DNA from: Dioscorea cayenensis subsp. rotundata
Taxonomy: Eukaryota > Streptophyta > Magnoliopsida > Dioscoreales > Dioscoreaceae
Assembly (NCBI RefSeq): GCF_009730915.1
Contig: NC_052487.1
Location: 1,984,001-2,048,000, forward strand
DNA length: 64,000 nucleotides
Direction: 5' to 3'
Shown here: one piece after another, positions 958 through 42,776 of the stretch
How the letters are laid out: the number at the start of each line of letters is the position of its first letter
Numbering within the stretch: position 1 is the stretch's first letter
Position numbers and translations under genes: made by a program
The notes under the pieces: generated by a model
The model's database searches: none
The model's input: the letters and a program-made list of their open reading frames with translations, nothing else
Told to the model about the DNA's origin: nothing

Positions 958-3135
958 TCATAGTCCCTTGAAAGAAGTTTCATCTTCATCTTGATCAGAA
1001 GATGAAACAAAAGGTCTTGGGGGTATCTCCAAGCTCTCCAAACTCCCAATAAGCATCTGCACAACTCTTGTCATTGTAGGCCTATCATTTGGACTCCATT
1101 GTATGCACCACAATGCCACAATCACAAGCTTCCTCACAATCTCTTCTTCATCGTTCATCATCTCTATTGCTACTCGAAAACTATGACCGCCAATCAGCTG
1201 CTCGTAAACCCATTCAGGGAGATAAATTGCACTCTGATTATCAACCAACGGGTCGATATTCTTCCTTCCACCAACCATTTCAAGTAGCAGCATTCCGAAG
1301 CTGTAAACATCTGATTTGTAAGACACTGTTCCAAAGTTCCTGGAGTAGATTTCCGGCGCAATGTAGCCCATGGTGCCCCTTATTGCAGTCATAGTTACAA
1401 TGCTCTGGTCTCTTGAACATAACTTTGCGAGACCAAAATCAGAAATCTTCGGATTGAAATCATAATCCAGCAAAATGTTGTGAGGCTTGATGTCGAAATG
1501 GAGAATGCGCTGATCACATCCTTGGTGCAAATACTCAACCCCCCGCGCTATCCCAATTGCAATACCAAGCAATTTATCCATTCCAAACAGACGATTTCCA
1601 TTGGCGTCTCGCGAGAATATGTACTTCTCTAAAGACTCATTCGGCATGAACTCATAAACAAGAGCACGCCTTGTCCCTTCAGAGCAAAAGCCAAGGAGAT
1701 GCACTATATTGATATGGTGAATCCTTCCAATGGTGCCAACTTCATTTATAAAATCATCTCCCTCACTTTTAGTTTCCTCAAGCATCTTCACTGCCACAGG
1801 AATTCCATTCGGTAGCTCTCCTTTGTAGACACTTCCAAAACCTCCTTCCCCCAATTTATACTTGAACCGTTTCGTGATCTTCTTAATACCAGCATAAGTG
1901 TATCGAGCCGGCTTTGTTGTCTTGTATGAGGCCAGAAACATCTCAACTTTCATTCTCAATTCTCTTCGCCTCTTTGCTTTTCTAGAAATGAAGAAGAATG
2001 TAAACCCCAATATCATAACAATAACAAGCACACCAGCAGCTAATCCTGCAAGAAAACAACCACTAAGTAATTACTATCTATTCATTTTCATTCTAGCATT
2101 TAAGCATGATCTCTTACTCAATTCTTAACAAATTTGCACATCAAAAGACAATGCTAAATTTTATCTCATATATCCAAGAATTCAGATATAAAAAAACAGA
2201 ACAAAAAGCTATCATTTTTTTTTTTCTCTAAGTTGTTAAAAGGCACATACCTGCTATGAGCTTAACAAGCGAACCTGCAAAACAGAGAAAGAGGAATCAC
2301 TGTTCATTGCAAGCATTCAAACAAACACCTTGAGTGCATTCAATTCACCTACAAAACAAAGCAAAAGCTTACTGTGAGTGTTGCCGGAGCTGAAGCAGAA
2401 AGTGCTGTTGCTTGCGTGGTCAAGCCCGCAATGATTTCCATTCCTCTCGCAGAGGCTGCAACGAGAGCTCATCTCCGAGTAGGACCATTGAAGCCTGGTC
2501 TTGGAGCTAGCAAAGTAAGCATCCACAAAGCTTTGGAAGGGAAGAAATGAATAGGAATTATTAAGGCCATATCCAATCTCTCCACCAGTGGCAATCACCA
2601 CGCAATCGGAGGGCAGGAGGTCCAAGGAGACCCATTCGCCAACAACGTACACAAATCGATCACTCCCATTGAAGCAATCGCCCGGGCGAGCGATCGAGTC
2701 CTTTTGTGCATCAAATTTGAATTCTTTGGAGCAGTTGATGAGACTGATGCCGATTCCATCAACAGAGAAGAACTCATTCGAAAGATTAGTGGATCTTAGG
2801 TCTCGCAATGGGCATGGAGGCCAGAAACCAATGGTATCGATGGTGATGAGCTGATAAGAGTAATCAATGGCTGTGACCTTGAAGGAAAGAGAAGGGCGGA
2901 GGGTGAGATGGGCTTGATCGGCAGAGCAGGAGATAAGGAGACCTTCAAGACCGCAGATTGCCGGGCTGGTGTTGAGCCGGAGAGGGAACCGCACCTCGAG
3001 GTCGCCGCACTTCGCCGAACGCGGGCAGTGACTGAAAAACCACTCCTCCGCCTCGTTAGAGCCGGCGGTGGCGCCGGTGATGGCGAGTAGGAGGAGGAGA
3101 AGAGGAAGGCAAGCAGTGAAGGATGGGAATGGCAT
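958..3135 (-). CDS. LRK10-like receptor-like kinase (copy 1), non-RD
   Basis: Transmembrane receptor kinase of the LRK10L type, expected at the plasma membrane and likely a Ser/Thr kinase. My model has three exons: 2373-3135, a 24-nt mini-exon 2251-2274, and 958-2045, joined in phase and giving 624 residues. The chosen start (3135) opens a strong signal peptide (MPFPSFTACLPLLLLLLAI); an in-frame ATG 57 nt upstream also exists. The ectodomain shows the cysteine-rich GUB_WAK_bind pattern (CPRSAKCGDLEVRFPLRL, GFWPPCPL, NCSKEF). The mini-exon and next exon encode one membrane span. The kinase domain has a GEGGFG loop (about 328-333), VAVK lysine, HFDIKPHN in place of HRD (about 445-452), DFG (465-467) and an APE motif. 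HFD makes it a non-RD kinase, a class often linked to immune receptors. It is a close paralogue of the gene at 13262-16219. Ligand unknown. Confidence 0.93.
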
Positions 3136-3432
3136 GGATGAATGGCTAGGGTTTGGGATGAACGGATGAAGAGCTTGGAACTCCATTCGCAATTTTGCAT
3201 GGCGAGAAAGTCAAAAGTCAAGAGTCAATGGCGGGACTTAATAGAGCACAAGGACTTCTCTGTTTCTCAAAACCATGGAGAGACGTGGAGGAATAATACA
3301 ATACAATACAATACTTTTTTTTAAAAAAATTATAAATAGTTAAATCATGTATAAATAATTTATGATATGTTTTATAGACTTTAATCCCAAAAATAAGTCA
3401 CCTGAAAATGAAAAGAAATTATTCTTTCTAGT

Positions 3433-5345: not shown

Positions 5346-5394
5346 TGATAAAATTAGATAAAAAAGAATGCACACCCTACAGATCATTTTTTTT

Positions 5395-7101
5395 GTAGAA
5401 GCTCTCGCTCTACTTGTATCTTTACTTTCCTTTTAATATATTGCAGTGATTTATCCACTTTTTCAAAAAATAAATAAATGAGTGCATGCGTAGACAGACA
5501 ATTGGTCCCAAGGGTCTCCGCACTCTGCCGAATCAAAGCAATATGGTCCTCCATCACCTCCTTCGCACCCTCAGTAGCTGAAGAAAACCAGGACATCAAC
5601 ATATGGTCAATTTTCATAATGAGTGCATGCGTAGACAAACAATTGGCATTAAAGATGCAATCATTTCTAGTGAGCCAAATATTCCACACAATTGCTTTTG
5701 CTACTAAAATCCCAACATCCCTATTGTTCGCACACAACGAAGTTCTCCAATTCCCCCAAATCTCCTGCAGGGACTCAGGAGAATCCGGAAGACGCAGGAG
5801 GCTCACAAAGTACGTCCATACTTGCCGAGCCACCGAACATCGAAAGAATAGATGATCCGTCGTCTCGATCGCCAGGTTGCACATAACACATGTAGCCGTA
5901 GGCAGCTGATTACAGCTCCTAATGGCAAGAACCTCCAAAGTAAGGATCCTATTCTTCCAAGCTAACCAGTTGAACAAGTTAACCTTCTTCGGGCACGGCT
6001 TTTTCCAGAAGAAACTTGCAATGGGGCAACGCATACCACCATCAATTATAAAATTGTAAAATGATTTCACCGTGAAAGATCCATTCCCGGTCAACCTCCA
6101 ACATTTTTTATCTCCTACCCCGCCGGCATAATCCCTGACTCTTTCCCAATAGTTACGACTATCTCCCTCCGTAGAGAAAGGAACATGCATTAAGAGACAG
6201 TGCAACTCGTGCACCGAACCATTGGGCTCATCTGTCGAACGAAATTCCTCCGGCCAGATGTACATAGGTGCGCGGCCGTTAAACCATCTATCCTTCCAGA
6301 AGAGTGTCTCCGATCCTGATACGACATCATGCAGCACACATCCCCGAAACGCCGGCAGGCAGCCCATAACTCCTTTCCAGAAGAAGGAAAGCCTACCTGG
6401 CTGCCTGGGGAACATATTCCAACGGCTCACCCCATAATTAAACTGGATGATATCAGCACCACACCATGCAGAATCCGTCATGAACTTCCACCACCACTTG
6501 CCCAAGAGCGCAAGATTAAAACTCGACAGCTCAAGAATACCCCAACCACCCTGATCCCTAGGTCGACATATATTGTTCCACCACCAACCTCCATCTCGGA
6601 TGTTCCAAGTCCGGACCAGACCAAAGGAAATCTCTTCTGATCCGATCAATCTCCTTGATAACCCAACAAGGCAAATGAAACAGCGACATCCAAAAAGTAG
6701 GAATCGCAGATAAGACCGTTAATCATAGTTAGTCGCCCCCCTAAGGATAGATGTCTTGCTTTCCAAGTGGATAACCTTCTCCGTATTTTTGAGATAAGAA
6801 TCTCCCAGTCCTGTTTCCTTGGTCTCCTACCAGAGATAGGGATCCCCAAATAAGTAACTGGAAGCAAACCCCTCGCACAACATAGCGTCTCCGCCGCCTC
6901 CCTGTTCGGTAACCCATCCATCGAAACCGAATAGAGACAAGTTTTAGAAAAATTAGCCGTTAAACCAGAAAGACCTTCGAAGATATATAAGATCAGCTTG
7001 ACAATTCGCAAGTCTTCTAGCCCCCCTGTAGTCAAAACTAACAGGTCATCCGCATAATGAAGATTGCATTTACTACCCCAATCCTTCGTATTTTCAAACA
7101 T
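5395..7101 (-). mobile_element. 5'-truncated LINE (non-LTR retrotransposon), degenerate
   Basis: The minus strand encodes the C-terminal half of a plant LINE ORF2. At 6646-7101 the reverse-transcriptase palm begins with the catalytic YADD box (NLHYADDLLVLTTG), followed by PVTYLGIPISGRR and LSTWKARHLSLGGRLTMING. A frameshift near 6650 moves the reading into 5384-6649, which carries FWKDRWFNG, the zinc-binding zf-RVT region (CPKKVNLFNWLAWKNRI, CVMC, TDHLFFRCSVARQVW) and a typical tail. Everything 5' of YADD (endonuclease, early RT) is missing; the break coincides with an (AT)n tract. The tail ends in a short A-run near 5388-5395. Not able to move by itself. Confidence 0.85.
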
Positions 7102-13261: not shown

Positions 13262-16219
13262 TTATTCTTCACTCAAAGGTGGAAGGGAAGATGAAACAAA
13301 AGGTCTAGGGGGTAACTCCAAGCTCTCCAAACTCCCAATGAGCATTTGAACAACTCTTGTCATTGTAGGCCTATCAGTAGGACTCCATTGTATGCACCAC
13401 AGAGCAACAATCACAAGCTTCCTCACAGTTTCTTCTTCATTGTTCATCATATCTATCGCTACACGAAAATTTTGCTCGCCGATCAACTGCTCGTAAACCC
13501 ATTCAGGGAAATAAATCTCATCAGTTTTCTCTACCGAAGGATCGATGTTTTTCCTGCCACCTACCATTTCCAAAACCAGCATTCCAAAACTATAAACATC
13601 TGATTTGTAAGACACTGCTCCAAAGTTCCTTGAGTAGATTTCAGGTGCAATGTAGCCCCTTGTGCCTCTTACTGCAGTCATTGTCACAATGCTTTGATCT
13701 CTTGAGCATAGTTTTGCAAGACCAAAATCAGAAATTTTTGGATTGAATTCATAGTCGAGTAAAATATTATGAGGCTTGATGTCGAAATGGAGAATTCGCT
13801 GATCACATCCTTGGTGCAAATACTCAACACCACGCGCTATCCCGGTTGCAATTTCAAGCAGTTTTTCCATTCTAAATGGACGGTTTCCATCTGCATCTCT
13901 TGAGAATATGTACTTCTCTAAAGACTCATTAGGCATGAATTCGTAAACAAGTGCGCGTCTGCTTCCTTCGGCGCAAAAGCCAAGCAGACGCACCACATTG
14001 ACATGATGAATTCTTCCAATGGTGGAGACCTCATTAATAAAGTCACCTCCCTCACCTGTAGGTCTGATCTCAAGCATCTTCACTGCGACAGGAATTCCAT
14101 TTGGTAGCTCTCCTTTGTAGACACTTCCGAAACCACCTTGGCCTAATTTGTTCTTAAACCGTTTCGTGATCTTCTTGATTCCAGCATAATTGAACCGAGT
14201 TGGCTTTGTAGTCTTGTATGAGGCAAGGAACATCTCAACTTTAATTCGAAGTTGTCTGTCCCGGTCGGCTTTTCTGGAGATGTAGAGGAATGTAGACGCC
14301 ACAACCATAAAAAAGAAGATGATACAAGAGGCGAGGCCTGACAGAAGAGTAGCAGTAATTACTAATTAGAACAAAGTCTTCCTGGTTCTCATGCTATGAT
14401 ATTTGGAATAAAGAAAATGCAGATGATTTTTAAACTAGTATAGATCAAGATTATAGCGCAAATTTAAGTCGTTTGTTAAGAATCGTGTGAAAAAATAAGC
14501 GAGCAATGACTAACCTGCAATGAGTTTGACCCAAGTGTCTGCAAAAGATACAAAGAATTATTAGTGCATTCCAATCATAGCCTTTCTGCTGGATAACAAG
14601 TCCATGAAACAAAAATTCCAAACAGAGCAAGTTCATGGCCAATGTCCCATGCTGAAACACACCACTTTTTTACAAGAGTGATTATAAAACAGGGAATGCT
14701 TAACTTACAGTGTGTTAAGAATGCACCTTCTCTTCTATTTTCATTGAAGAGCATGTTTATTGAATAAGAGTTCAAGTCAATTTCAACAGAAAAACTCAAA
14801 GATAAAAGAAACATAATATCAAACATGCAGAATTAATATATACCTCAAGGATGCACCTCCTTATGGAATATCTTCATGAAAGAAGAGCACATGGTAAATA
14901 TAATTTTAATACAAAAACTCAAAAAAAGGTTGAATCAACACTTCTATACTTCATTAATAACAAACATCTAGCGCTAGCTGAACATCAATCAATATTCAAT
15001 ATCTGCCAATGTTTCGAAATACTCCATAGTAAACAAGCAAAACTCATTGATTGTTTCAAAGCTTGCATTTTTCCTGCATCCTAAAAGAACTTTTTTTTTT
15101 TTTTGTGTGTGTGTGTGTGTGTAAGTTCTCTAACACAATACATAAGTAAACAGATAAAATTAGCGATGTTCTTGTTCTATAGTTCTCATTGAGTCATTCT
15201 AACAAACACCTATCATGCACTTGGAATTAATATGGGAAGCTCATCATTCATCCTACATCTAAAAGAGTGTTTTCTTGAGTTAAATTATCTAATCTAAAGC
15301 ACGAATGAAAACCACACCACAATCAGATATCCTGCTGCTAAATTTCTCATTGAAGCATTCTAACAAACACCTCTCATGCACAAAAAATCACAGGATGCTC
15401 ACCAAGGTGCTTGTGGCCGTCGACATTGATGCAACACGCATCTCTTTTAAGATCAAGCCCGCACTGCTTGTCTTGCTGTTCACACTTCGAGCAAATTCTT
15501 GACTTCTTGCAATCACTGCTTCCGCCTGGTTCTTCTTCGAAACACCCGTACCCATTGTACCATACCATGCTGACCTCTGAGCTATGAAAGAAAGAATCAA
15601 CAACGCTGTTGAATGAATCCCGTCGACTATTTATGTCAGGGTCTCCAATCTCACCATCAGTGGAGATCACCATACAATCCAGAGGAAGCTTGTCCATGGA
15701 CTCCGATTGATCCACGACATACACAAACTCATCACCTCTGCTGGCGAGGCAACTGATAGGGCCGGAGATCCGATCCTCTTCAGCATTCGGCGTGAATTCT
15801 TTGGAGCAACTGATGAAACTAACCTCAGTAGAGCCAAAAAGAGAGAAATACTCATCTGAGAGCTTGATCGCGCTCATGTTCTTCATCGGGCATGGCGGCC
15901 AAAACCCATGCACATCGATGCTGATGCTTTGGGATTTATAATCAATGGAGTTGACCTTGAAAGGACCATGATCATGGCGGAGAGTGAGGAAGGCCTCATC
16001 GGAGGCGCAGGAGAGGACGAAGCCTTTCAACCCGCAGTGCGAGTCACTTGAGTTTAGCCTGAACGGGAACCGGATATCCACGTTGCCGCACTTCGTCGTT
16101 GGGCATTGCTTGGAGAAATCCTCAGAAACCTCGCCGCCTCCGTGGCCGGTGCCACCTCCATCGCCAGCGGCGGTGGCCAAGAAGAAGAGGAGGATGAGAG
16201 TGAGAGAGAGATAGCTCAT
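13262..16219 (-). CDS. LRK10-like receptor-like kinase (copy 2), non-RD
   Basis: Second LRK10L-type receptor kinase. Exons 15403-16219, a 24-nt mini-exon 14515-14538, and 13262-14337 join in phase to 638 residues. Signal peptide MSYLSLTLILLFFLATAAG. The ectodomain has the GUB_WAK_bind cysteine pattern (CPTTKCGNVDIRFPFRL, GFWPPCPM, SCSKEF) and, unlike copy 1, a fuller WAK-associated C-terminal cysteine cluster (CFEEE, CKKSRICSKCEQQDKQCGLD). The mini-exon encodes DTWVKLIAG at the start of the membrane span, as in copy 1. Kinase: GQGGFG (346-351), VAVK, HFDIKPHN (464-471, non-RD), DFG, APE. Most of the kinase exon matches copy 1 nearly residue for residue; the ectodomains are more diverged. Intron 1 is 864 nt against 98 nt in copy 1. 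Plasma membrane localisation and immune or developmental signalling are inferred from the family. Confidence 0.94.
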
Positions 16220-17379
16220 GGCTTAGAATCAGAAGCAATGGATACAAGTAGAAGAGGAGATCGCCAAACTCCATTAATATAGATCGAGGTCTTCAAGAGC
16301 TTGGTGGAAGTCTAGAGTCAACGTTAAAGTCAATGTACCATCACAATCTTCTCCAAAGTCTTTGTGGAAAAAAAAAAAAACCCACGTAGAAGCCTTGCAT
16401 GGTTCCACGCGCAAGTACGTTGAATAATTCCAAGTAATATATGAAGTATTTTTTCATTTATGTCCTTGTATAGTTGTAAAATTACATAAGGGTTTCTTTT
16501 TTTCTGTTTCATTATAAGGTAAAGAGTTTTGAAATAAGGGACAATAATGTTGTTTTTTTTTTAATATTTATAATATATTCTTTAAAAATAAAATAAGTGT
16601 TTGATAATTGTTTTTATAAAGAAAACTTTAAGATGTTTGTTGATGTGGATACTTCTATATGTACTGTTTAGAAAAAAGAAATACATACTATATATGGGTT
16701 TGATTATGGGAGAGCTGGTGTGATGGTTTGAGTTTCCTACAAAAATTGTTGTGTTTGGTGTTCTAAATCTTTTAGAAAATCCATGTTTTCTCACCAGAGT
16801 TATTCTATCAAATCCGTAGTTACTGTATCACGGAGACCAAATTATTATAAAAAAAGTATATCTTAATGCCTAGATTTCATTGGTATTGGTTGTTTGTGAT
16901 TTTGAGGTTTTTGGGTCCAAAACCATACCAATAGTGTTAAGGTGTTTGAGTAAATTTATGCATTCTACGCATGCATCTTTTCATTTTTAGTATTTTATTT
17001 ATAGTTGCATTCTTATAATTAAAACGTGGTGAAGCTTCTTCCAAGGGAAAGGAGATCTCTAAGACGTGAGGTTGGCCAAAGCCTAGGCAACTTATTTTGT
17101 GAGTGGTTGAAGTATTAGTGTATAGTCTTGATATGAGTAGTATAATATTTTCTTATATAATTTACAGTTTATTTTCATATCAAATTATATTTTATCACCG
17201 GTAATGATTTTACTAGAAAGAATTGAACATCTTGGGCATGTGAAAAACATTTACGCATTTTATTTGAGCTTGGCATTTCTATTTTCATATGTGTTTATGA
17301 TGGGATTATACTAGAGTGCATATGTAGTTGTACTCCAAATGTGGTATGACAGTTTTATTGAAATACTTATTCATGTGAT
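16220..17379. other. Intergenic, includes receptor-kinase promoter
   Basis: The first few hundred bases are the promoter and leader of the receptor kinase starting at 16219. The rest is AT-rich; minus-strand frames at 16330-16512 and 16582-16794 lack any family features. Confidence 0.45.
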
Positions 17380-29059: not shown

Positions 29060-33253
<4,194 letters not shown>

Positions 33254-34022: not shown

Positions 34023-34031
34023 TAAATTATA
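34023..34031. repeat. Left 9-bp target duplication of the MULE
   Basis: TAAATTATA, identical to 40093-40101. Confidence 0.85.
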
Positions 34032-34708
34032 GTGGAAATTGTCAAAAAAAACCCTACAACTTTGCCAAATTGTCAAACAAACCCCCATAGTTTCGGAATA
34101 CCCAAAAACCCCTTCCTTTTCAACTCCATGATTTTGAAACCCCCAAAGACGTAACGGCATTAAACTGAGTGTATTTAAAAATTTTATGGACTGAAAAATG
34201 CCCTCTGACGGGAAGTCGTAGCTGCACCCATTTCGGCGTGTGAGAGGAAGTGGGTGGGTTTTTTTCTTAGGCATTACAAACTGCTTGTCTTATCTCAACT
34301 CGCGACTCCAGCTCAACTCGCGTCTCCAGCTCTTCTCTTCCCACCCCAGACTCTTCCCTTTCCACCGTGTCTCGAAGAAGAAGTCCCTGCAAGTATTCGA
34401 GCATTTCGTCACTTTGCGTCTAAGGTATTCATTATGGTTTTTTGTTAACTATTCATTACTGAAGAGACATTTTTTTCGGTTTTTTGGTTTGTGATTTTTG
34501 TTTTTGTTGGAAGACATCAAGCTTTCGTGGGGATTAATCAGTGGGGTTTTTGTTAGTCCGCAGGGAGATGTCTCGGCTAGGGTTTTTTTGTTTTTGTTTT
34601 ACATTTTCGCTGCAGTATACGATCGAAAATGGTTTTTCCGATTGTTGTGCTTTTGTGTAATGTTTATAATCTACGCTTTACCCTTTCAGCTGATATGGTT
34701 GCGATTGT

Positions 34709-37300
34709 AAAAAAATGAGGTCTCCGCTTTAAAACAATGAGCTTTTACCGCTTTAAGTTAGTTCGTCTCCGCTTTAATTATTTGTATCTCGCTTTAATAG
34801 TATACGCCATCGCTTAAAAAAATGATATCGATGTTTAAGAACCGAGTGTTTACCGCTTAACAAATTACATTTCCGCTTAACAATGTGTCTGCTATTGTCG
34901 CAGGCTTGTGATTACGGGCGGTCAATCTAGTTAACGGGCGATGCTACTTGACACCCTAGAGTGGAGACCGTGGGTCGAATTGAAAGTTCACATGATCCCT
35001 CGACATCGGGAGATCATCCGAAGGGACACCGCTCACGAGATTTCATCGAGTTGGAAGTCAGTATACCAAGAGCGGGCCCTTCTCGACTCTCTCTGCGTAG
35101 ATACGATAACCGCACTAATAAATTCGAGGATCGGGAAAGCATGTCGACTTTCGAGCCCTCGAAGATGTGGCAATCGTTCTCGCTCGCGTTGCGATGGGGA
35201 GGCGATCGTGTTTCGAAGAAGAAAACACGGTCGACTTTCAAGAGAGGTATTTATAGAAGACGTACGAGAGCAGCAGAGACTCCATCGGAGCACTCTTCAA
35301 AGAACTCGTTGGACGAGAGGGAGAAGAGGAGAATTTTGCCAAACCATCGATGGTGTCATCTCCCCGGTACAATCCTCTTCCCAAATACCTCCCGCTCGGT
35401 TCCCTAATCGGATCGCTGATTATGTCGATGATCTACCGGAATGGGGCGCTACGCACGTGGCGCAAACGACGCACAAGTGGCTTATGGAGGACATACCACG
35501 AGCCGCTACCCGAGTGCAATCTAGATGCGCGGGGAAGAAGACCAACACCGGGTATGTTAAGGGTCTGCAGTGAGCGCTTAACATCCGGTTTTACTGAGTG
35601 ACCGGAACCGGAAAGAAAGTCCGCTTTCTGCGAAGATCCCAAGGATCGCTGCTACGGTGAAAAATACTTTACCGAAGCAAGCGACGATAGAGACGAGTTT
35701 GTCATCTCTCGAAGGAAAAGAGGTAATAATTCAAAAAAATATTTTTGTTTAACTCGTAGACGTTAACGCTTTAACCATATCATTTACCGCTTTAACTTTA
35801 TTCATCTATCGCTTTAACATTATAACTTACCGCTTTAACTTTGTTCAACTACCGCTTTAAACTTTTTAGTTTAATGTTTAATTTGTTTGTTTCATCGCTT
35901 TAACACAATAGGTTATAACGCTTTAAATATACGAAAGTTACATGTGTAAATATAGTTTTAATTGTTTAAACTAAATAATTTCGCTAAGATTGTTTGCTTT
36001 TTCACATGCTAGTTTCTCGAGATGGTTCCGCGAATCGTCGATGAAGAAGTATTTGTTCGGGCCAACCGTCGGTCGGATGCTATTGCTCCGGAACCGCTTG
36101 CTCAAAGGCAAGATGAGAGGGCAACCTCTTCCTGCGCTACTGGGACGCCGCTCTCCCGCTTCGAGCCAAAACGCATTCGTCGAGGCCGAGAAGCCCCTAC
36201 CCCACCCCGCCCGACCGTGGCTTCCCCGACCGTGTCAGCCCTCGAACGTGGCGGCCTCACGCCCAGACTAGGGCGAGGATGTCATCGCAACTCTCATGCA
36301 GCTTGCCGATTTTGATGACCGAGTTCCCTCGACTGTCGCTCGGGTGGAGGCATTGGAAGGCCGGTCACAGTCACAATCGACTGCGCCTTCCCTTCAAACA
36401 AATGAAGCACCCGGGACGGATACGCCGTCGGAGTTCGACGACGAGGACATCATCGGGGTGGCCCTTCAAAGACGGCCTCATTCGAAGAAGCTTGCAAAAA
36501 AGAGGAAAACAATAATGCCTCCGTCTCCACCCGTGCCGACTGACGATGAAATAATAGCAGCACCATCGGCAGCAGCACCATCGGCGGCTGATGTTGTTAA
36601 CGTTGATGACATGCCCATCACGGTGGAGGAGATTGAAGATGGCGCTGAGTTTGCCGTGGTGGAAAAGATCGTCGACTCTGTTGTTGACGACATCATGCAT
36701 ACGGTGGAACCGGCGCTGACAGATGCGGCATCAAAGATGGACACAATACATGAAGAAGAACAACCGGACAACGCTGTGTCTCCCATCGATGCTCGCCGCT
36801 GGAACTCACGGTTGAGAAGGTCGCTGAGTCTATCCTCAACGAGCGGAATTCACGGTGGAACCAACGGTCGACCGCTGCCGCATCGAGGCGCATACAATCC
36901 CACAAGAACAAGAAGCATGTAAGGAAGTGTCTCCCGCTGATGCTCGTCGTCGTGCCCCCATTAAAGGAAGCCAATAAAAAAGTAGAAGAACTTCGGAAAG
37001 TCTTCATTCCGAAGAAAAAAAATACGTTGGCCAATCGCGCCTCAATAAGTACGAGCAGGAGTTGATAAGGATCTTCCTCAACCGCCTCTATGGACAAGTA
37101 AGTTTGAAGTTTTTTTATGATATTGTTTAAAACTGCTTTTTAGTTACTGCTTTAAGTAGGAGCGTTAACGCTTTAAAAATTTACTGGATAACATTTAACT
37201 TATAAGTGATACCCTTTTAAATATTACCGCTACCGCTTTAAACATTCAATATAGAATTTAAAGTTTATACTTTAACGCTTTAATTTTTATACTTACAACA
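34709..37300 (+). repeat. Arrays of CGCTTTAA motifs in the MULE introns
   Basis: Three clusters of an (A/C)CGCTTTAA(A/C) motif: 34724-34800 (4 exact copies plus CGCTTAA variants to 34890), 35764-35930 (7 copies) and 37170-37290 (3 copies plus TGCTTTAAG). Exact copies are typically 20-35 bp apart and lie in the inter-exon segments, not in coding parts. Looser TGCTTTAA copies recur at 38560-38620. The coordinates span all three clusters; the coding blocks between them are annotated separately. Confidence 0.8.
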
Positions 37301-38094
37301 TTGTTTACATGTCTTTGTTCCGCTCAACCACAGAGACCGTCGTGTGGAAGAAACGACTCGTCAGACCACACGGGCCAATCTATTCGACCTGCTCGAGGGG
37401 AAGGAGATGGTCACAGACGATGTGATGGACGCATTCGTATGTATCTTGCAAAAGACGATGAGCGTAGTGCCATATCGTTATAAGAGGCGCGCTCCATCAC
37501 ACGCGCCATCGGCCTTGTTCATGTCAAAGCGAGGCGACGACGCACATGAATCCACGATGGCTATGATTGGAGATGCCGCGCGAACTTGCATGAAGTGGAC
37601 ATCGTCATCCTCCCGATAATTATGAGTGGGCACTTCCATGTCAGTCGTCCTCGACAATGAAAAAAACAAGAATACGTGCATTATTCTTCATGCCAAAGCG
37701 AAGAATACGATAAAAACGCGCTAGAAATGGTAAGTGCTTTAATAATTTGTGTTTGTGTAATAGTGTTCGGTAAATAATCGACATTCTAATATGAACTTGT
37801 ATATCTCGACAGTGAACCTATTCGACCTCCCAGATCGACATGGAGTTAGGGCGAGTCGGCGATCGCAAAGTACCCGCTTGTTCACGACAATCGAAGCCCC
37901 ACGACGTAAAAAAAGGAAGTGTCGATCGCAGCTGTCTATGTCATGCGGTTTATCAAGCGCTACTCACGGTGAGAAGCTACGGGTACATGCAGACCGACGT
38001 CCCTTATCTGCGATTAAGGTATGTTTCCCGCATACTTAGGGAGGGGAGGGCGCTGCATCACGACCCGGAGGGAGTCTTGCAAGCGGGTTCTTAG
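34941..38094 (+). pseudogene. Ulp1-type (C48) cysteine protease gene of a MULE, decayed
   Basis: Split by introns with visible sites (for example donor at 37098 and acceptor before 37334; donor at 37730 and acceptor before 37813). The 5' part, 34941-35730, reads in alternating frames into a region typical of plant Ulp1-fusion proteins (HKWLMEDIPRAATRVQSRC, GKKTNTGYVKG, then ALNIWFYELTGT), possibly DUF1985-like. 36012-37097 encodes an acidic, low-complexity linker (VALQRRPHSKKLAKKRKT, VEEIEDGAEFAVVEKIVDS). The protease part lies in 37334-37729 (VDIVILPIIMSGHFHV with the catalytic His, then an LDNE Asp after a frameshift) and 37813-38094 (VYVMRFIK, TDVPYLRLRYVSR). At least four frameshifts are needed to read it through, and the expected catalytic Cys codon is CGC (Arg) at 37927-37929. 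Ulp1 proteases remove SUMO from proteins; this copy should be inactive. Confidence 0.72.
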
Positions 38095-38699
38095 TCATTC
38101 TTTTTTTATATTTGTATACACGATTCTTTCTTTAATAATCCAGATTCATTGTTTAACATACACTTTCGGTGTTTAAGTATATAGTTCATTGTGTAAATAT
38201 CAATGTAATTGTTTAAACTCCGCTTTTCATCTGTAAAAACGAACCCGAGGGGAGTGTACGTAAGCGGGGTCATAGTCATCAGTATAGGTGTAATAGTTTC
38301 AAATGTAAACCAGCTTTTAAATTGATTCATTTTTCGAAGAACATGACAAATTTTTGTCAATGTAAATGTACATGTATCTAAATTCAATTAAATTCATTCT
38401 GCTTTCGCTTTTGAGGTTCCGTTCTTGTTGGATGATATTGTAGTCAGCGAGGTACATTATCGGGTAGGGTTCTGTTTCATTTTCATTTTCATTATCGGCT
38501 AATATCAACATTCATTTTTAATCAGTATAATGATAACTTTTGCCCTTTAACTTTCGCTTTTCTCTGCTTTAAGTTTAGGTTTCTCTGCTTTAAATTTAAT
38601 ATTTTCTGCTTTAAAAATATCCTTATTATTTAATAATATCAATGTAATTACAACAAAAATATACTTAATATTTTCTGTTTAAAATATCCTTATTACAAT

Positions 38700-39149
38700 A
38701 ATAATAAGAAGTATATACACAATGCCTAGTCGGCAACAGATTCATTCCACGATCTGCGATTGTGACCAAACGCGTGCAATGGCTACAACGCAACTTGCGG
38801 ACCTCGGACGCCACGACTCGATCCTCTTTCGCCTAGGACACCCGAGTTGCCTTCTCGTCACAAAGGTCGCAAACGTAGTTCGTGATTTTTCATCCATCGA
38901 CTGTCATTGTCCGGTATGGGGAATATAGCTTCCTTATACGCCATTTTTTTGAAGTCGAAGCTTCGCTCCACGATCACCCGTGTTTCTCGCTCTTCAGAAT
39001 TTGAAGTCAAAATTCCTTTTGATCGCAAAAATTCGTAAGTGCGTCTCGAAATGTTCAACGCCTTCAAAACATTGTCCAATATCCAACGACAACACTTCGA
39101 CTTGATCGGATGAGGAAGGAAGGCACGCCACACCCTCGGGGCTCGCCAT
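38700..39149 (-). pseudogene. mudrA N-terminal remnant (MuDR DNA-binding domain)
   Basis: From an ATG at 39149 the minus strand reads MASPEGVACLPSSSDQ, then LDIGQCFEGVEHFETHLRIF and AIKRNFDFKF before a stop. Skipping that stop and a frameshift, KSEKHRVIVERS and then KKWRIRKLYSP follow. The pattern G-x-F-x-x-x-x-x-F, a helix, AI-K-FDxKF, xKSEKxRV, WRI is the plant MuDR transposase DNA-binding domain (PF03108). Nothing like the MULE DDE catalytic domain follows. The remnant runs in the direction opposite to the Ulp1-like gene, so the two were separate genes of the element. Non-functional. Confidence 0.6.
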
Positions 39150-40092
39150 GATGTGGAACGAAGCGTTGCAGATTCGAATTCCCCGCCAACACTTTTAGTT
39201 TAAACGAACACGATCAATATTTAAACAGAGACACAAAAATATTTAAACGATAAACATAAATCTTAAACGTTAAAACAAAAAAAGTTAAATAATAAGTTAA
39301 TAAGTTAATCGGAGACAATAGTGTTTAAATGGAAACTTGATAAATGTAAACAGATGACGAGGGATAATAAACAATAATTAACTTCTACAACTATATAAAC
39401 ATAAAGCGAGAAGAAACTTACAACGAGAAGAACTCGCTTTTCGATGAGGATACGATGCCACATCATCCGTCCCCAACAACAAGATCAACAATGAACATTT
39501 GAAGATGGAGTGCACGTGACACATGCTACTGGAAGTCAACCTCGCTTTTATATGAGACATACCATTTTATGTCCATCGAGTGTGATAAACTTCACCCTCG
39601 ACACGGGAAATATCGAGACCCCATCGCTCACATATTTCACCTAACATCGATTCCCCAAGAAGTCGTGCAGTGAACATTAGCACTCATCCCTCCCCGTAGT
39701 ATCTAAGCAATAGCACAAAAACTCTCCATAATTTAATCTGAAGAGCTAAAAATTGATACACCAAATGAGAAGAAAGAAAAAGAAGAAGAAGAACAAGAAC
39801 AAGAACAAGAAGAACAAGATATGAGCCTTCTAAACTTTGTTTTGAGAAAAAGCAAGCAGGAGGCAAAAAATTGAAAAAAACTATGCATAAAGAAAGTTAT
39901 GATTGGGCGCCTATTTTTTTCCCACCTTTGCAAGGGCAAAAAGGAATTTCATATCGTGGACCCACTTCAACTTACCGTGCGGGGGTTAAAAAGGAATGTA
40001 AAATATAACGGAGGGCTGTCCGGGGTGTGCAAAAGTTGGAGGGGGTTTTTGGGAAGTTTTGAAAATTACGAGGGGTGAACAGTAATTTTCCC
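39150..40092. other. Right non-coding part of the MULE
   Basis: Contains many TTTAAAC/GTTAA motifs (39195-39350), an A/G-rich run at 39770-39815 (AAGAAGAAGAACAAGAAC) and the right terminal region. Minus-strand frames at 39378-39560 and 39684-39866 are low in complexity or have no family features. Confidence 0.5.
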
Positions 40093-40101
40093 TAAATTAT
40101 A
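40093..40101. repeat. Right 9-bp target duplication of the MULE
   Basis: TAAATTATA, identical to 34023-34031. Confidence 0.85.
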
Positions 40102-40640: not shown

Positions 40641-42776
40641 ATGGCGGTGCGCGATGATCCGAGATCTTCAGAGAAGAAGCAGAGCGATGATCTTCAGACC
40701 TTCAACGCCGAGAACCTCCAGAGCAACATGAGGTCAATCTACTACAGGTCCATCTCGCCATTGTTTGGTTTCTTTCGATGTAATTGATGCTTGGTTTCTT
40801 TGATCTGTGAATTTTGATGGTTTTTCTATTGTTTTTCTTTGTAGCCGGACCTTTTTATCCATTGTTGGTGGTGTGGTTTCTGGGATCTTCGGGTTTACAG
40901 GTCTGATGGGTTTTGTGTTCTACTTTGTGGTAATGGCCCTAGCGTCTCTAGGGTTTGCGGCCAAGGCGAAGTTCTCTCCTTGTGCGTACTTTGATTCTTG
41001 GAGCAGGATTGTTGCTGATGGGTTTCTGGGTGGACTCTTGGTATGTAGATCATCTTGTTTTTAGCAAATCATTAATTGATGAATATTATAATGAATTGTA
41101 ATTTTGTTGGCTGAGAACTCATTGTTTAGATTGGGGAAAAAATTCTTTTTTTTTTTTTAATGAAAAGAATATTGAATTGTAGTTGTTTTACTTAAGAATC
41201 TACTGCTTTAGGATTTGTTTGGATAGGGAGCAAATAGATGTGAGATTGAAGAAAGGAAGTGTATGGATGAATGAAGAAAATAAGATGGATTAGTATGTGG
41301 AACAATTAGAAAAATTTCTTGGTTAAGAATCTTGTTTTTAGGATGTGTTTAGGTTTAGGGAAAACAGAGGAGCAAGTGGAGAAGAAAGTGAAAGTTGTCT
41401 TCTTTGTGTTTTGATTGAATGAAGTAAAGAAGAGGGATAAGCATATGGATTACTATTTTCTGATCAAAAGAATATTGAACAGTAATTGCATTGGTTGAGA
41501 ATTCCATGCTTTTGGATGTGTTTGGATTGGGGGCAAATAGGAAATTTAAAGAAAGGAAAGTGAAAACTTGTTTAGGTTGGGAGGAGTGGAGGAGAAAGAA
41601 GATAATGGAAGTAGAAAGTTGAATTTTTTATGCTAGGTTAAATGAGGAAAATAAGAGGAATAAATGAATGAAAGAACAACTTTTGAATTGTAACTATATT
41701 GGTTAAGAGTCTCCTGCTTTAGGATGTGGTTGCATTGGTGGCAAATAGAGGACAAATTAAAGAAAGTAAGTTGTTTCCTTCTCATTGGTTGATTGGGAAG
41801 GAAAAGTATGATCAAATTCTTTTGTTCTCTATATCTCTCCATGATGAAACATAACTTAGTGGAAGTTAGTTCTATGCAAAACAATTATAAGTTTACACTA
41901 GAGGAAAAAAAAAGTTGTGCTCATTTTTTGTCTTATGCAAAGGATATTGTTACTTGCTTGCTAAATATAGTTCATGTATGTTTGCAAAACGAAATTGTTA
42001 AGCATTCTTTAAATTTTAATGGTTGTATGAAAAGCATGAAATTATTTGTTTAGAATCTTTTGATATTGTTGGGAATTTTTATTTTTTTTTTGAAGAACCT
42101 CTCCAAATAGAGAAGCTATTTATTAATTGGGATGCTTCTTAATTAGTTTAAACTGAAGAAAAAAAAAACCAGCTGAGCCAATTCAATTTGGTTCTGTGAC
42201 TTCTGTTAGTTCAATTTAGATCAGTACAGTTTAGAAGAATTTTAGCACCTGTTGCTTAGAATAGAAAAGTTTGATTCGTAGATGCTAGATTCTTATGCAT
42301 ATCTTGTTGAATTGTTGAAAGGATAAATTGTTTAGTGCCTGCAATATTTTTGTCTCAGAAATATTATGAATTAGGGCATTGGTAATATTGGTACATATCA
42401 AAGGAATTCCGTAACTTCTCTGACATTGAAGTTTACTGTTTCCCACTTGAATATTTGATCTTCAATTTGCTTTTTGTCTCAGAAACATTATGAATTACGG
42501 CATTAATAGTATTGGTATATAATGGTTATGACAGGAACTCAGTAGCTCCTTTGACATTGAATTTTTCTTGTTTCTCACTTAAATATTTGATCTTCAATTG
42601 CCAATATCGATCTTACTTGGTTTTTGTCATTGATTTAGATATTTTTTGCGATTTATGCTCAGAATTTCGAACCTATCCTTGCTCTAACTTAAATTTTCTT
42701 TTTGATCATTTTTTCTTTTGGGCAGTCCTTTGTGCTGTTCTGGACATTTGCTTATGATTTGGTGCATATATTCTAA
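40641..42776 (+). CDS. EMC6: ER membrane protein complex subunit 6
   Basis: Subunit of the EMC insertase, which helps insert tail-anchored and multi-pass proteins into the ER membrane. Three exons (40641-40747, 40845-41040, 42726-42776) with GT-AG introns of 97 and 1,685 nt join in phase to 117 residues, the usual EMC6 length. The N-terminal cytosolic part contains DLQTFNAENLQSNMRSIYYS, the most conserved segment of the family. Then come hydrophobic segments: FLSIVGGVVSGIFGFTG, GFVFYFVVMALASLGF, and the C-terminal SFVLFWTFAYDLVHIF formed by the last exon. The very short last exon (17 codons with stop) was placed by matching the family ending DLVHIF. The large second intron shows degenerate repeated phrases (TTTGGATTGGG, GGTTAAGAATC) but no other gene. 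Confidence 0.97.

Follow-up and report, generated by a model that had tools for sequence, protein, structure and literature searches.

A non-autonomous Mutator-like element with a plant-mobile-domain and Ulp1 gene between PAPS and EMC6 in Dioscorea cayenensis subsp. rotundata

A 6061-bp Mutator-like element (MULE) lies between PAPS and EMC6 in a 64,000-nucleotide stretch of contig NC_052487.1 (hereafter the window, to which all positions refer). Its present form is very probably the joint outcome of the insertion of a non-autonomous, high-copy MULE, one deletion within mudrA, presumed mobility in trans, and probable assembly errors at CHG sites.

Results

Recurrent ends delimit the insertion

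The element and its borders comprise:

34023–34031, unstranded: left target-site duplication TAAATTATA, single copy in unoccupied paralogous sites
34032–40092, unstranded: element, 6061 bp, both end points common to 17 of 20 fetched copies
34032–34043, plus: left terminus, GTGGAAATTG[CT]C in copies (17 of 17 with both ends)
40081–40092, minus: right terminus, reading inward GG[GA]AAAATTACT (17 of 17 with both ends)
40093–40101, unstranded: right target-site duplication TAAATTATA

In agreement with the preliminary description, a PAP_RNA-bind domain on the minus strand (29572–30567) and EMC6 on the plus strand (40846–41040) are found on either side, and an exact TAAATTATA flanks the element at 34023–34031 and again at 40093–40101. 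This pair by itself is weak evidence, since a common 9-mer occurred in 733 of 5000 randomly drawn pairs of 150-bp windows separated by about 6 kb. The terminal inverted repeats are poor: the pairing proposed earlier holds for 7 of the 9 outermost bases (GTGGAAATT / GGGAAAATT), but its score is matched by 3 to 93 of 1000 shuffles, varying with length and scoring. These figures also describe the element with respect to the non-TIR ends of KAONASHI elements; TIRs are absent from some MULEs, according to the available part of PMC6446971. An outer inverted-repeat pair was dropped, its score being reached by 647 of 1000 shuffles. Taken alone, a 9-mer repeat with weak inverted repeats would be compatible with a domesticated gene or a chance repeat instead of a transposon copy, a reading to which we attach next to no probability and which is refuted by the recurrence of the ends, by the duplications around further copies and by the unoccupied sites.

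The left-end genome search (1340 first-look candidates) yielded 40 scored places, namely the window and 39 others at 91–94%; 14 of the 40 alignments start at query 8–10, the element edge, 24 extend into the AT-rich duplication and 2 start inside. The right-end search (1946 first-look candidates), again with 40 scored, returned 39 others at 93–95%. Both end points were identical in 17 of 20 fetched copies, which had been picked by left-end similarity, so that left-end agreement is flattered. The 9-bp duplication is exact in 12 of the 17 copies with both ends, matches at 8 of 9 positions in L018 and L020, and at 7, 4 and 3 of 9 in L011, L019 and L023, respectively; left and right 9-mers taken from different copies agree at 8 or more positions in 22 of 272 control pairs. 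MULE target-site duplications measure 8–11 bp (PMC6446971, available part), a range that includes the 9 bp found here and in these 12 copies. Two duplicated PAPS–EMC6 regions on the same chromosome are without the element and have one TAAATTATA each, which supplies the predicted empty site from paralogous duplicates, not from another species.

The borders of a Mutator-like insertion are thus settled by the recurrence of shared ends across the genome and not by the 9-mer alone. With common end points, a perfect duplication and unoccupied sites, the boundaries are intact, as had been suggested. The best explanation of the insertion target is the upstream region common to PAPS and EMC6.

One internal deletion removed the catalytic part of mudrA

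The mudrA gene on the minus strand consists of the following parts:

39468–39707, minus: first exon, PB1-like, placed by tblastn (PB1 in sister L042 0.0011, below cut-off)
38997–39146, minus: DNA-binding part (DBD_Tnp_Mut, profile 4–44 of 67)
38945–38977, minus: deletion junction, about 3.2–3.3 kb with MULE and SWIM domains gone
38729–38959, minus: C-terminal tail, CCHC zinc knuckle recognised by eye (under the Pfam cut-off)

The expected mudrA remnant was recovered, DBD_Tnp_Mut scoring 1e-6 in an unaltered frame of copy L010 and 2e-12 in a vote over the copies (joined pieces). It had been taken for a privately decayed trace; instead, it carries a defined internal deletion, which fuses the DNA-binding part directly to the zinc-knuckle tail and whose junction is present in 13 of 17 aligned copies. 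No match to the MULE (DDE) domain PF10551 was found in the window and copy-vote pieces scanned, and the corresponding region is deleted relative to the full-length sister L042. The MULE (DDE) and SWIM domains were lost in a single internal deletion that most sampled copies have in common. Because the DDE domain is missing, we file the element as a non-autonomous MULE derivative, an assignment that rests on the ends, the duplication and the remaining mudrA parts.

Relatives with a full mudrA, which the preliminary description had suggested seeking, do exist: L042 has all domains (DBD 6.3e-23, MULE 1.4e-7, SWIM 3.8e-10), and L043 has the same domain order by tblastn only. Their right ends were not located, so that the ends they have in common with the element are shown on the left only. 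Nine loci cut at MULE-domain matches (9 of 150 scored) gave no match to the mudrA pieces of the element family. Since the copies' own product is without a catalytic domain, they would move by transposase supplied in trans from full-length relatives of the L042/L043 type. The family, which has discarded its own catalytic domain, yields more than 1000 first-look candidates.

The short mudrA product, a DNA-binding part with a zinc-knuckle tail, might alternatively have been kept as a putative repressor that sits at the ends and blocks the full-length transposase. A single open frame runs across the junction in L010, and the prevalence of the junction among aligned copies would suit such a role; however, an in-frame junction is expected by chance in 1/3 of cases, and a subtype (L012, L019 and L023, with L025 similar) is without the DNA-binding part, and we regard retention as a repressor as unlikely. 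Near copy L025 lies a transposase of a different type (FAR1-like by eye).

The plus-strand gene joins a plant mobile domain to Ulp1

The gene opposite mudrA is a plant-mobile-domain (PMD) plus Ulp1 (C48) gene, with the parts:

34962–35594, plus: plant-mobile-domain/DUF1985-like part, placed by tblastn, frames broken in the window copy
36013–37065, plus: middle part, without known domain, open frames
37338–38055, plus: Ulp1 (Peptidase C48)-like part, by copy vote and sister L042

An unaltered frame of L018 matches PMD at 8.4e-15 (55.2 bits, cut-off 34.9) and DUF1985 at 5.3e-8 (33.4 bits, under the cut-off of 35.1). Longer frames of the middle part in L010 and L018 matched no family above cut-off. 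The Ulp1-like gene claimed on this strand was borne out by C48 in joined pieces of the copy vote (1.4e-4, 22.3 bits, cut-off 20.7) and of L042 (1.6e-10, 41.6 bits), and solely there; the window's own joined pieces gave DBD_Tnp_Mut and no C48 match. Pfam found nothing convincing on nine short frames of the window, and the element read through whole (three plus frames, one of three minus) gave weak DBD_Tnp_Mut alone. A PDB sequence search with the window's Ulp1 piece found nothing, and a scan of viral contigs confirmed no Ulp1 relatives. The Ulp1 catalytic Cys codon is CGC in the window and most aligned copies.

Small indels concentrate at CAG and CTG

Frames are broken in all 18 sequences, and the window differs from the majority of copies at 4.5% of sites. 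Together with the CGC codon and a homoplasy on the tree that is similar for indels and substitutions, with no clear separation, this would fit an old Mutator element in which the Ulp1 and transposase genes decayed once it had inserted. Against such real decay, which we hold to be improbable, stand the position and rate of the indels. CAG and CTG, a plant CHG methylation context, rank first and second among the 64 trinucleotides near small indels (14 of 18 sequences), and 29% and 26% of them, respectively, are retained, compared with 59–84% across nine control triplets (17 of 18 sequences). The window retains 16% of the sisters' CAG/CTG versus 47–55% for four control pairs. Indels stay above zero as substitution approaches zero, the pairwise 1-bp indel rate extrapolating to 1.33% (136 pairs), and in the outer 100 bp they are almost absent (0.001 and 0.005 per bp versus 0.015–0.030 inside; 11 of 18 sequences). 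The window's right outer 100 bp equal the majority, the left outer 100 bp carry two substitutions and one 1-bp insertion, and the target duplication is perfect.

We infer with good support that most frameshifts, and part of the apparent 4.5% divergence, come from errors of the assembly at methylated CHG sites; long-read errors at such sites inside a repeat would escape short-read polishing. The age of the window copy is therefore probably less than its appearance suggests, and the decay of coding parts described earlier is largely unsupported.

Other measurements were less distinctive or spoke against this reading. Pairwise substitution in the right outer 100 bp still averages 5.2%, with a median of 3.1% (all 18 sequences). 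The fraction of changed CAG and CTG with a length change was 0.58 and 0.53 versus 0.39–0.57 for controls, no excess over several of them, and CTG was low (0.62) also in an intact, ABCF-like host gene, with CG near 1.0. From copy to copy, the correlation of kept CAG/CTG with unbroken frames was weak (pooled rho -0.31, p 0.04, n 43), and of the single parts Ulp1 only reached significance; neither this test nor homoplasy clearly backed long-read error. Majority and threshold votes over the copies gave frames of at most 303 and 240 aa, no gain over the 337 aa of a single copy.

Arrays of YGTTTAA words between the coding blocks

Short-motif tandem arrays fall in parts of the element that are non-coding as judged from the frames:

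34725–34874, plus: YGTTTAA-type array, 8 places
35746–35963, plus: YGTTTAA-type array, 10 places
37124–37276, plus: YGTTTAA-type array, 5 places
38150–38210, plus: YGTTTAA-type array, 3 places
38565–38676, plus: YGTTTAA-type array, 4 places
39206–39269, minus: YGTTTAA-type array, 4 places, in the presumed mudrA intron

The words occupy the stretches between coding blocks and read mostly in the direction of transcription; L018 has 27 on the plus and 5 on the minus strand, and all 15 of its gaps of 30 nt or less measure 20–22 nt. A contrast between CGCTTTAA in the window and TGTTTAA in the sisters was dropped, as L018 and L020 have CGTTTAA at the same places. The position of arrays spaced by about 20 nt between coding blocks raises a VANC/KIU-like reading, in which the PMD/DUF1985–Ulp1 protein and its own YGTTTAA targets may form a sequence-specific anti-silencing system outside Arabidopsis. 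On the evidence of motif layout we consider this conceivable though doubtful.

Discussion

ULP-bearing MULEs are an already known kind, and the following comparisons draw on the available portions of the sources. In the KAONASHI (KI) MULEs of Arabidopsis, which are high-copy, Ulp1 runs reverse to mudrA (PMC2528002, PMC6117577). The Kaonashi label given earlier fits by layout, C48 being present on the plus strand and mudrA on the minus; unlike KI/KIU, the element's mudrA is without MULE and SWIM, and its plus gene includes a PMD. ULP-bearing MULEs are also known in melon, rice and grapevine, where Mutavine-3, -4, -17 and -18 are marked with a ULP region (PMC2528002). These likewise combine mudrA and Ulp1 within one element, with 9-nt duplications where found (PMC2528002), whereas the copies sampled here lack the catalytic core and the full-length sisters come nearer to that arrangement. 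VANDAL elements with VANC pair a DUF1985-type protein with arrays of the motif YAGTATTAY in non-coding parts (PMC5735166); our element has a DUF1985-like part that scored under cut-off in L018, and it too has non-coding arrays, but its motif is of the YGTTTAA type and Ulp1 is present. Finally, the MULE-Monocots, MDR, MUDRAVI2 and MUDR groups have PMD antisense (Table 1, PMC6446971), opposite a transposase with SWIM or CCHC (PMC6446971), an arrangement also seen in the sisters.

The element is a clean MULE case, its boundaries proven and its unoccupied site identified, from a family that lost DDE and SWIM in one deletion and retained its Ulp1 gene. Methylated repeats in this assembly appear misread at CAG/CTG, which makes broken transposon frames and divergence-based ages in it doubtful. 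Were the anti-silencing reading true, the element would be a parasite specialised in relieving its own silencing, and perhaps that of its full-length sisters, and the Ulp1 domain would be a working part of the candidate system. The role of this domain in plant transposons is termed unknown in the available part of a 2026 review (PMC13317346); if the arrays are targets of the PMD–Ulp1 protein, that role would become testable.

Boundaries and insertion site of the element

The Mutator-like element (MULE; 34032–40092) is bounded by these features:

34023–34031 and 40093–40101, both flanks of the element: target-site duplication TAAATTATA
Left side of the element, opposite EMC6, minus strand: PAPS
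40641, 540 bp right of the duplication: presumed EMC6 start codon, assigned by eye (EMC6 exon domain score 9.4e-14)

The identical flanking 9-mers of the preliminary description are thus present, but the repeat alone is weak evidence because the DNA is AT-rich and random pairs often share one (733 of 5000 random window pairs had a 9-mer in common by chance). When the genome was searched with each end in turn, 40 places were scored for the left end, out of 1340 first-look candidates, and 40 for the right, out of 1946; such candidates are not equivalent to confirmed copies. The 20 best left-end matches, excluding the window itself, were fetched, and in 17 of them both ends coincide with those of the window element, a recurrence that upholds the boundaries first proposed. 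L017, which breaks after 430 bp of the element with its right end beyond the fetched stretch, and L022 and L025, whose right alignments end 13 and 21 bp short, were left out of the copy set. The 9-bp duplication is exact in 12/17 copies, 11 of these 12 being A/T-only; agreement is 8/9 in two copies, and 7/9, 4/9 and 3/9 in L011, L019 and L023. One further-deleted copy of 2.4 kb (L027) carries a perfect 9-bp duplication.

The left terminus is GTGGAAATTG[CT]C and the right terminus, read inward, GG[GA]AAAATTACT in all 17 copies. Inverted pairing between the element's two ends is poor, as already remarked of its terminal repeats; since the asymmetrical termini occur throughout the copy set, this characterises the family and does not reflect damage to the window copy.

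A query joining both flanks with one copy of the duplication matched two places on the same contig, at 1.66 and 1.69 Mb, with 81% identity and unbroken over the insertion point. Both contain a single TAAATTATA within the same flanking words as the window, and a search of L045, the stretch at one of them, found no element sequence. The anticipated unoccupied site therefore exists, but in paralogous duplicates of the PAPS–EMC6 upstream region and not in an orthologue from another species. These duplicated regions (1.658 Mb, L046; 1.686 Mb, L045 and L047) lie in opposite orientation, are identical to each other in 608 of 617 aligned columns and are 81% like the window's flanks.

We conclude that the window element is a non-autonomous MULE whose insertion is confirmed, and that it belongs to a known kind, the ULP-bearing MULEs. 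No published account of the family was found in literature searches mostly not aimed at it, and Dioscorea combined with MULE terms returned no yam paper.

Elsewhere in the window, two receptor-kinase-like frames, named by eye and each adjoined by another long frame, occupy 958–2070 and 13262–14365 (minus) together with 2317–3210 and 15374–16222 (minus); the two receptor-kinase-like frames are 84% identical over 1028 bp. A 444-aa frame at 5384–6718 (minus) resembles, by eye, the C-terminal part of a LINE reverse transcriptase.

Coding content and full-length relatives

The minus-strand mudrA remnant noted earlier comprises a PB1-like first exon, a partial DBD_Tnp_Mut domain and a zinc-knuckle tail. 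In copy L010, one frame of 127 aa connects the DNA-binding part with the sequence beyond the junction at which mudrA is internally deleted. This junction is present in 13 of 17 aligned copies, all that span the stretch; the stretch is absent from L014, and L012, L019 and L023 form a subtype with a larger deletion. Members of this subtype, L025 included, are without the DNA-binding part, and their tail piece is just 81–83% like the window's. At ~38691–38705, most fetched copies are longer than the window by roughly 220 bp, between short repeats.

Related copies with full mudrA were sought using the 72-aa mudrA tail (150 places scored of 2197 candidates), and two sisters, L042 and L043, were fetched. 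L042 has the family's left end and plus gene, and its mudrA contains DBD_Tnp_Mut (6.3e-23), MULE (1.4e-7, 32.3 bits; cut-off 27.6) and SWIM (3.8e-10) domains, with PB1 below cut-off (0.0011); L043 has the same domain order by tblastn alone. Relative to L042 and L043, 3.22 and 3.33 kb are missing from the middle of the window's mudrA. With 72–80% identity in the main blocks, both count as relatives rather than as the direct parent. A search for their right ends found neither, and nine other MULE-domain loci gave no match to the family's mudrA. A genome-wide MULE-domain (PF10551) search yielded 3312 first-look candidates; all 150 scored exceeded the cut-off, many in long open frames.

The Ulp1-like plus gene was likewise borne out. 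An unaltered 304-aa frame in copy L018 matches the plant mobile domain (PMD; 8.4e-15, 55.2 bits; cut-off 34.9) and, below cut-off, DUF1985 (5.3e-8, 33.4 bits; cut-off 35.1), with the Ulp1 domain (Peptidase C48) downstream. Pfam found no C48 match in the joined window pieces; a residue vote over the copies scored 1.4e-4 (22.3 bits; cut-off 20.7) and the joined exons of L042 1.6e-10. The catalytic Cys codon, assigned by eye, is CGC in the window and TGC in L020 and L023; this position is also Cys in the L042 and L043 frames.

Decay or sequencing error in the broken frames

Frames are broken in all 18 sequences (the window and 17 copies; longest plus frames 117 to 337 aa), in keeping with the decay described earlier, yet indel clustering and clean ends also fit read error. 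Extrapolated to zero substitution, the rate of 1-bp indels between pairs of sequences is still 1.33% (136 pairs, 17 sequences). Indel proximity is highest for CAG (4.81) and CTG (4.39), ranks 1 and 2 of 64 trinucleotides (mean 2.11; 14/18 sequences). At sites where at least two copies have the triplet (17/18 sequences), CAG and CTG are kept in 29% and 26%, CCG, CGG and TCG in 45–52%, and the controls GTC, GAC, CAT, ATG, TGA, CAC, GTG, AAC and TTG in 59–84%. CTG is most often replaced by TCG, CCG or CG, and CG is over-represented in the element (ratio 1.30) but under-represented in the flanks (0.56, 0.67). The sisters' CAG/CTG are kept in 16% (window), 14% (L020) and 40% (L018), against 47–62% for controls. 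Within the outer 100 bp, loads per bp are 0.001 (left) and 0.005 (right) for indels and 0.007 and 0.017 for substitutions, compared with 0.015–0.030 and 0.032–0.062 in inner bins (11/18 sequences).

Such a pattern is expected if long reads misread methylated CHG sites, which would create indels and lost CAG/CTG inside the element, while short reads anchored in unique flanks would correct only about the first read length, leaving the outer 100 bp clean. Modified bases are reported to make nanopore basecalling harder and to lower plant data quality (PMC7501810; PMC9749173), and the Dioscorea assembly was presumably made from such long reads with short-read correction. Several results run against this reading. 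Changed CAG and CTG sites involve length change (0.58, 0.53) no more often than some controls (0.39–0.57); an intact ABCF-like gene gave CTG 0.62 and CG 1.0; indels and substitutions could not be told apart by homoplasy; and when kept CAG/CTG were correlated with frame switches in three regions, only Ulp1 gave a significant result. Moreover, across all 18 sequences the mean difference is 5.2% in the outer 100 bp on the right (median 3.1%), a value that counts against error, and 1.2% on the left. At its right edge, the window copy is identical over 100 bp to the majority sequence of the other 17; the outer 100 bp at its left edge contain two substitutions and one inserted base. Given these opposing results, we conclude, without a date, that the window copy is probably younger than its apparent divergence implies.

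Short-motif arrays and a possible anatomical likeness to anti-silencing systems

Between the element's coding blocks the word [CT]GTTTAA is repeated. L018 has 27 plus and 5 minus occurrences (mean 2.05, maximum 8 in 200 shuffles), and all 15 of its neighbouring word gaps of at most 30 nt are 20–22 nt. Plus/minus counts are 26/6 in L020, 29/10 in L042, 19/8 in L043 and 10/5 in the window, where only the plain word is counted. Between copies, [CT]GCTTTAA and [CT]GCTTAA stand in for it; including them, the window element has 33/5, versus 13/18 in the remaining 57.9 kb. One run of array words is on the opposite strand:

39206–39269, minus strand: run of array words in the presumed mudrA intron

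Arabidopsis VANDAL VANC proteins are described as having DUF1985; they bind tandem arrays of short motifs, specific to each family, in non-coding DNA and remove methylation (PMC5735166; PMC10398659). A VANC gene that has a transduplicated Ulp1 domain is called a KIU in one review (PMC13317346). Like VANDAL elements, the present one has short-motif arrays in presumed non-coding parts, along with a gene whose DUF1985 score falls below cut-off, a likeness of anatomy only. The arrays and the PMD/DUF1985-like–Ulp1 gene may resemble the VANC/KIU system anatomically, a mechanistic lead worth testing.
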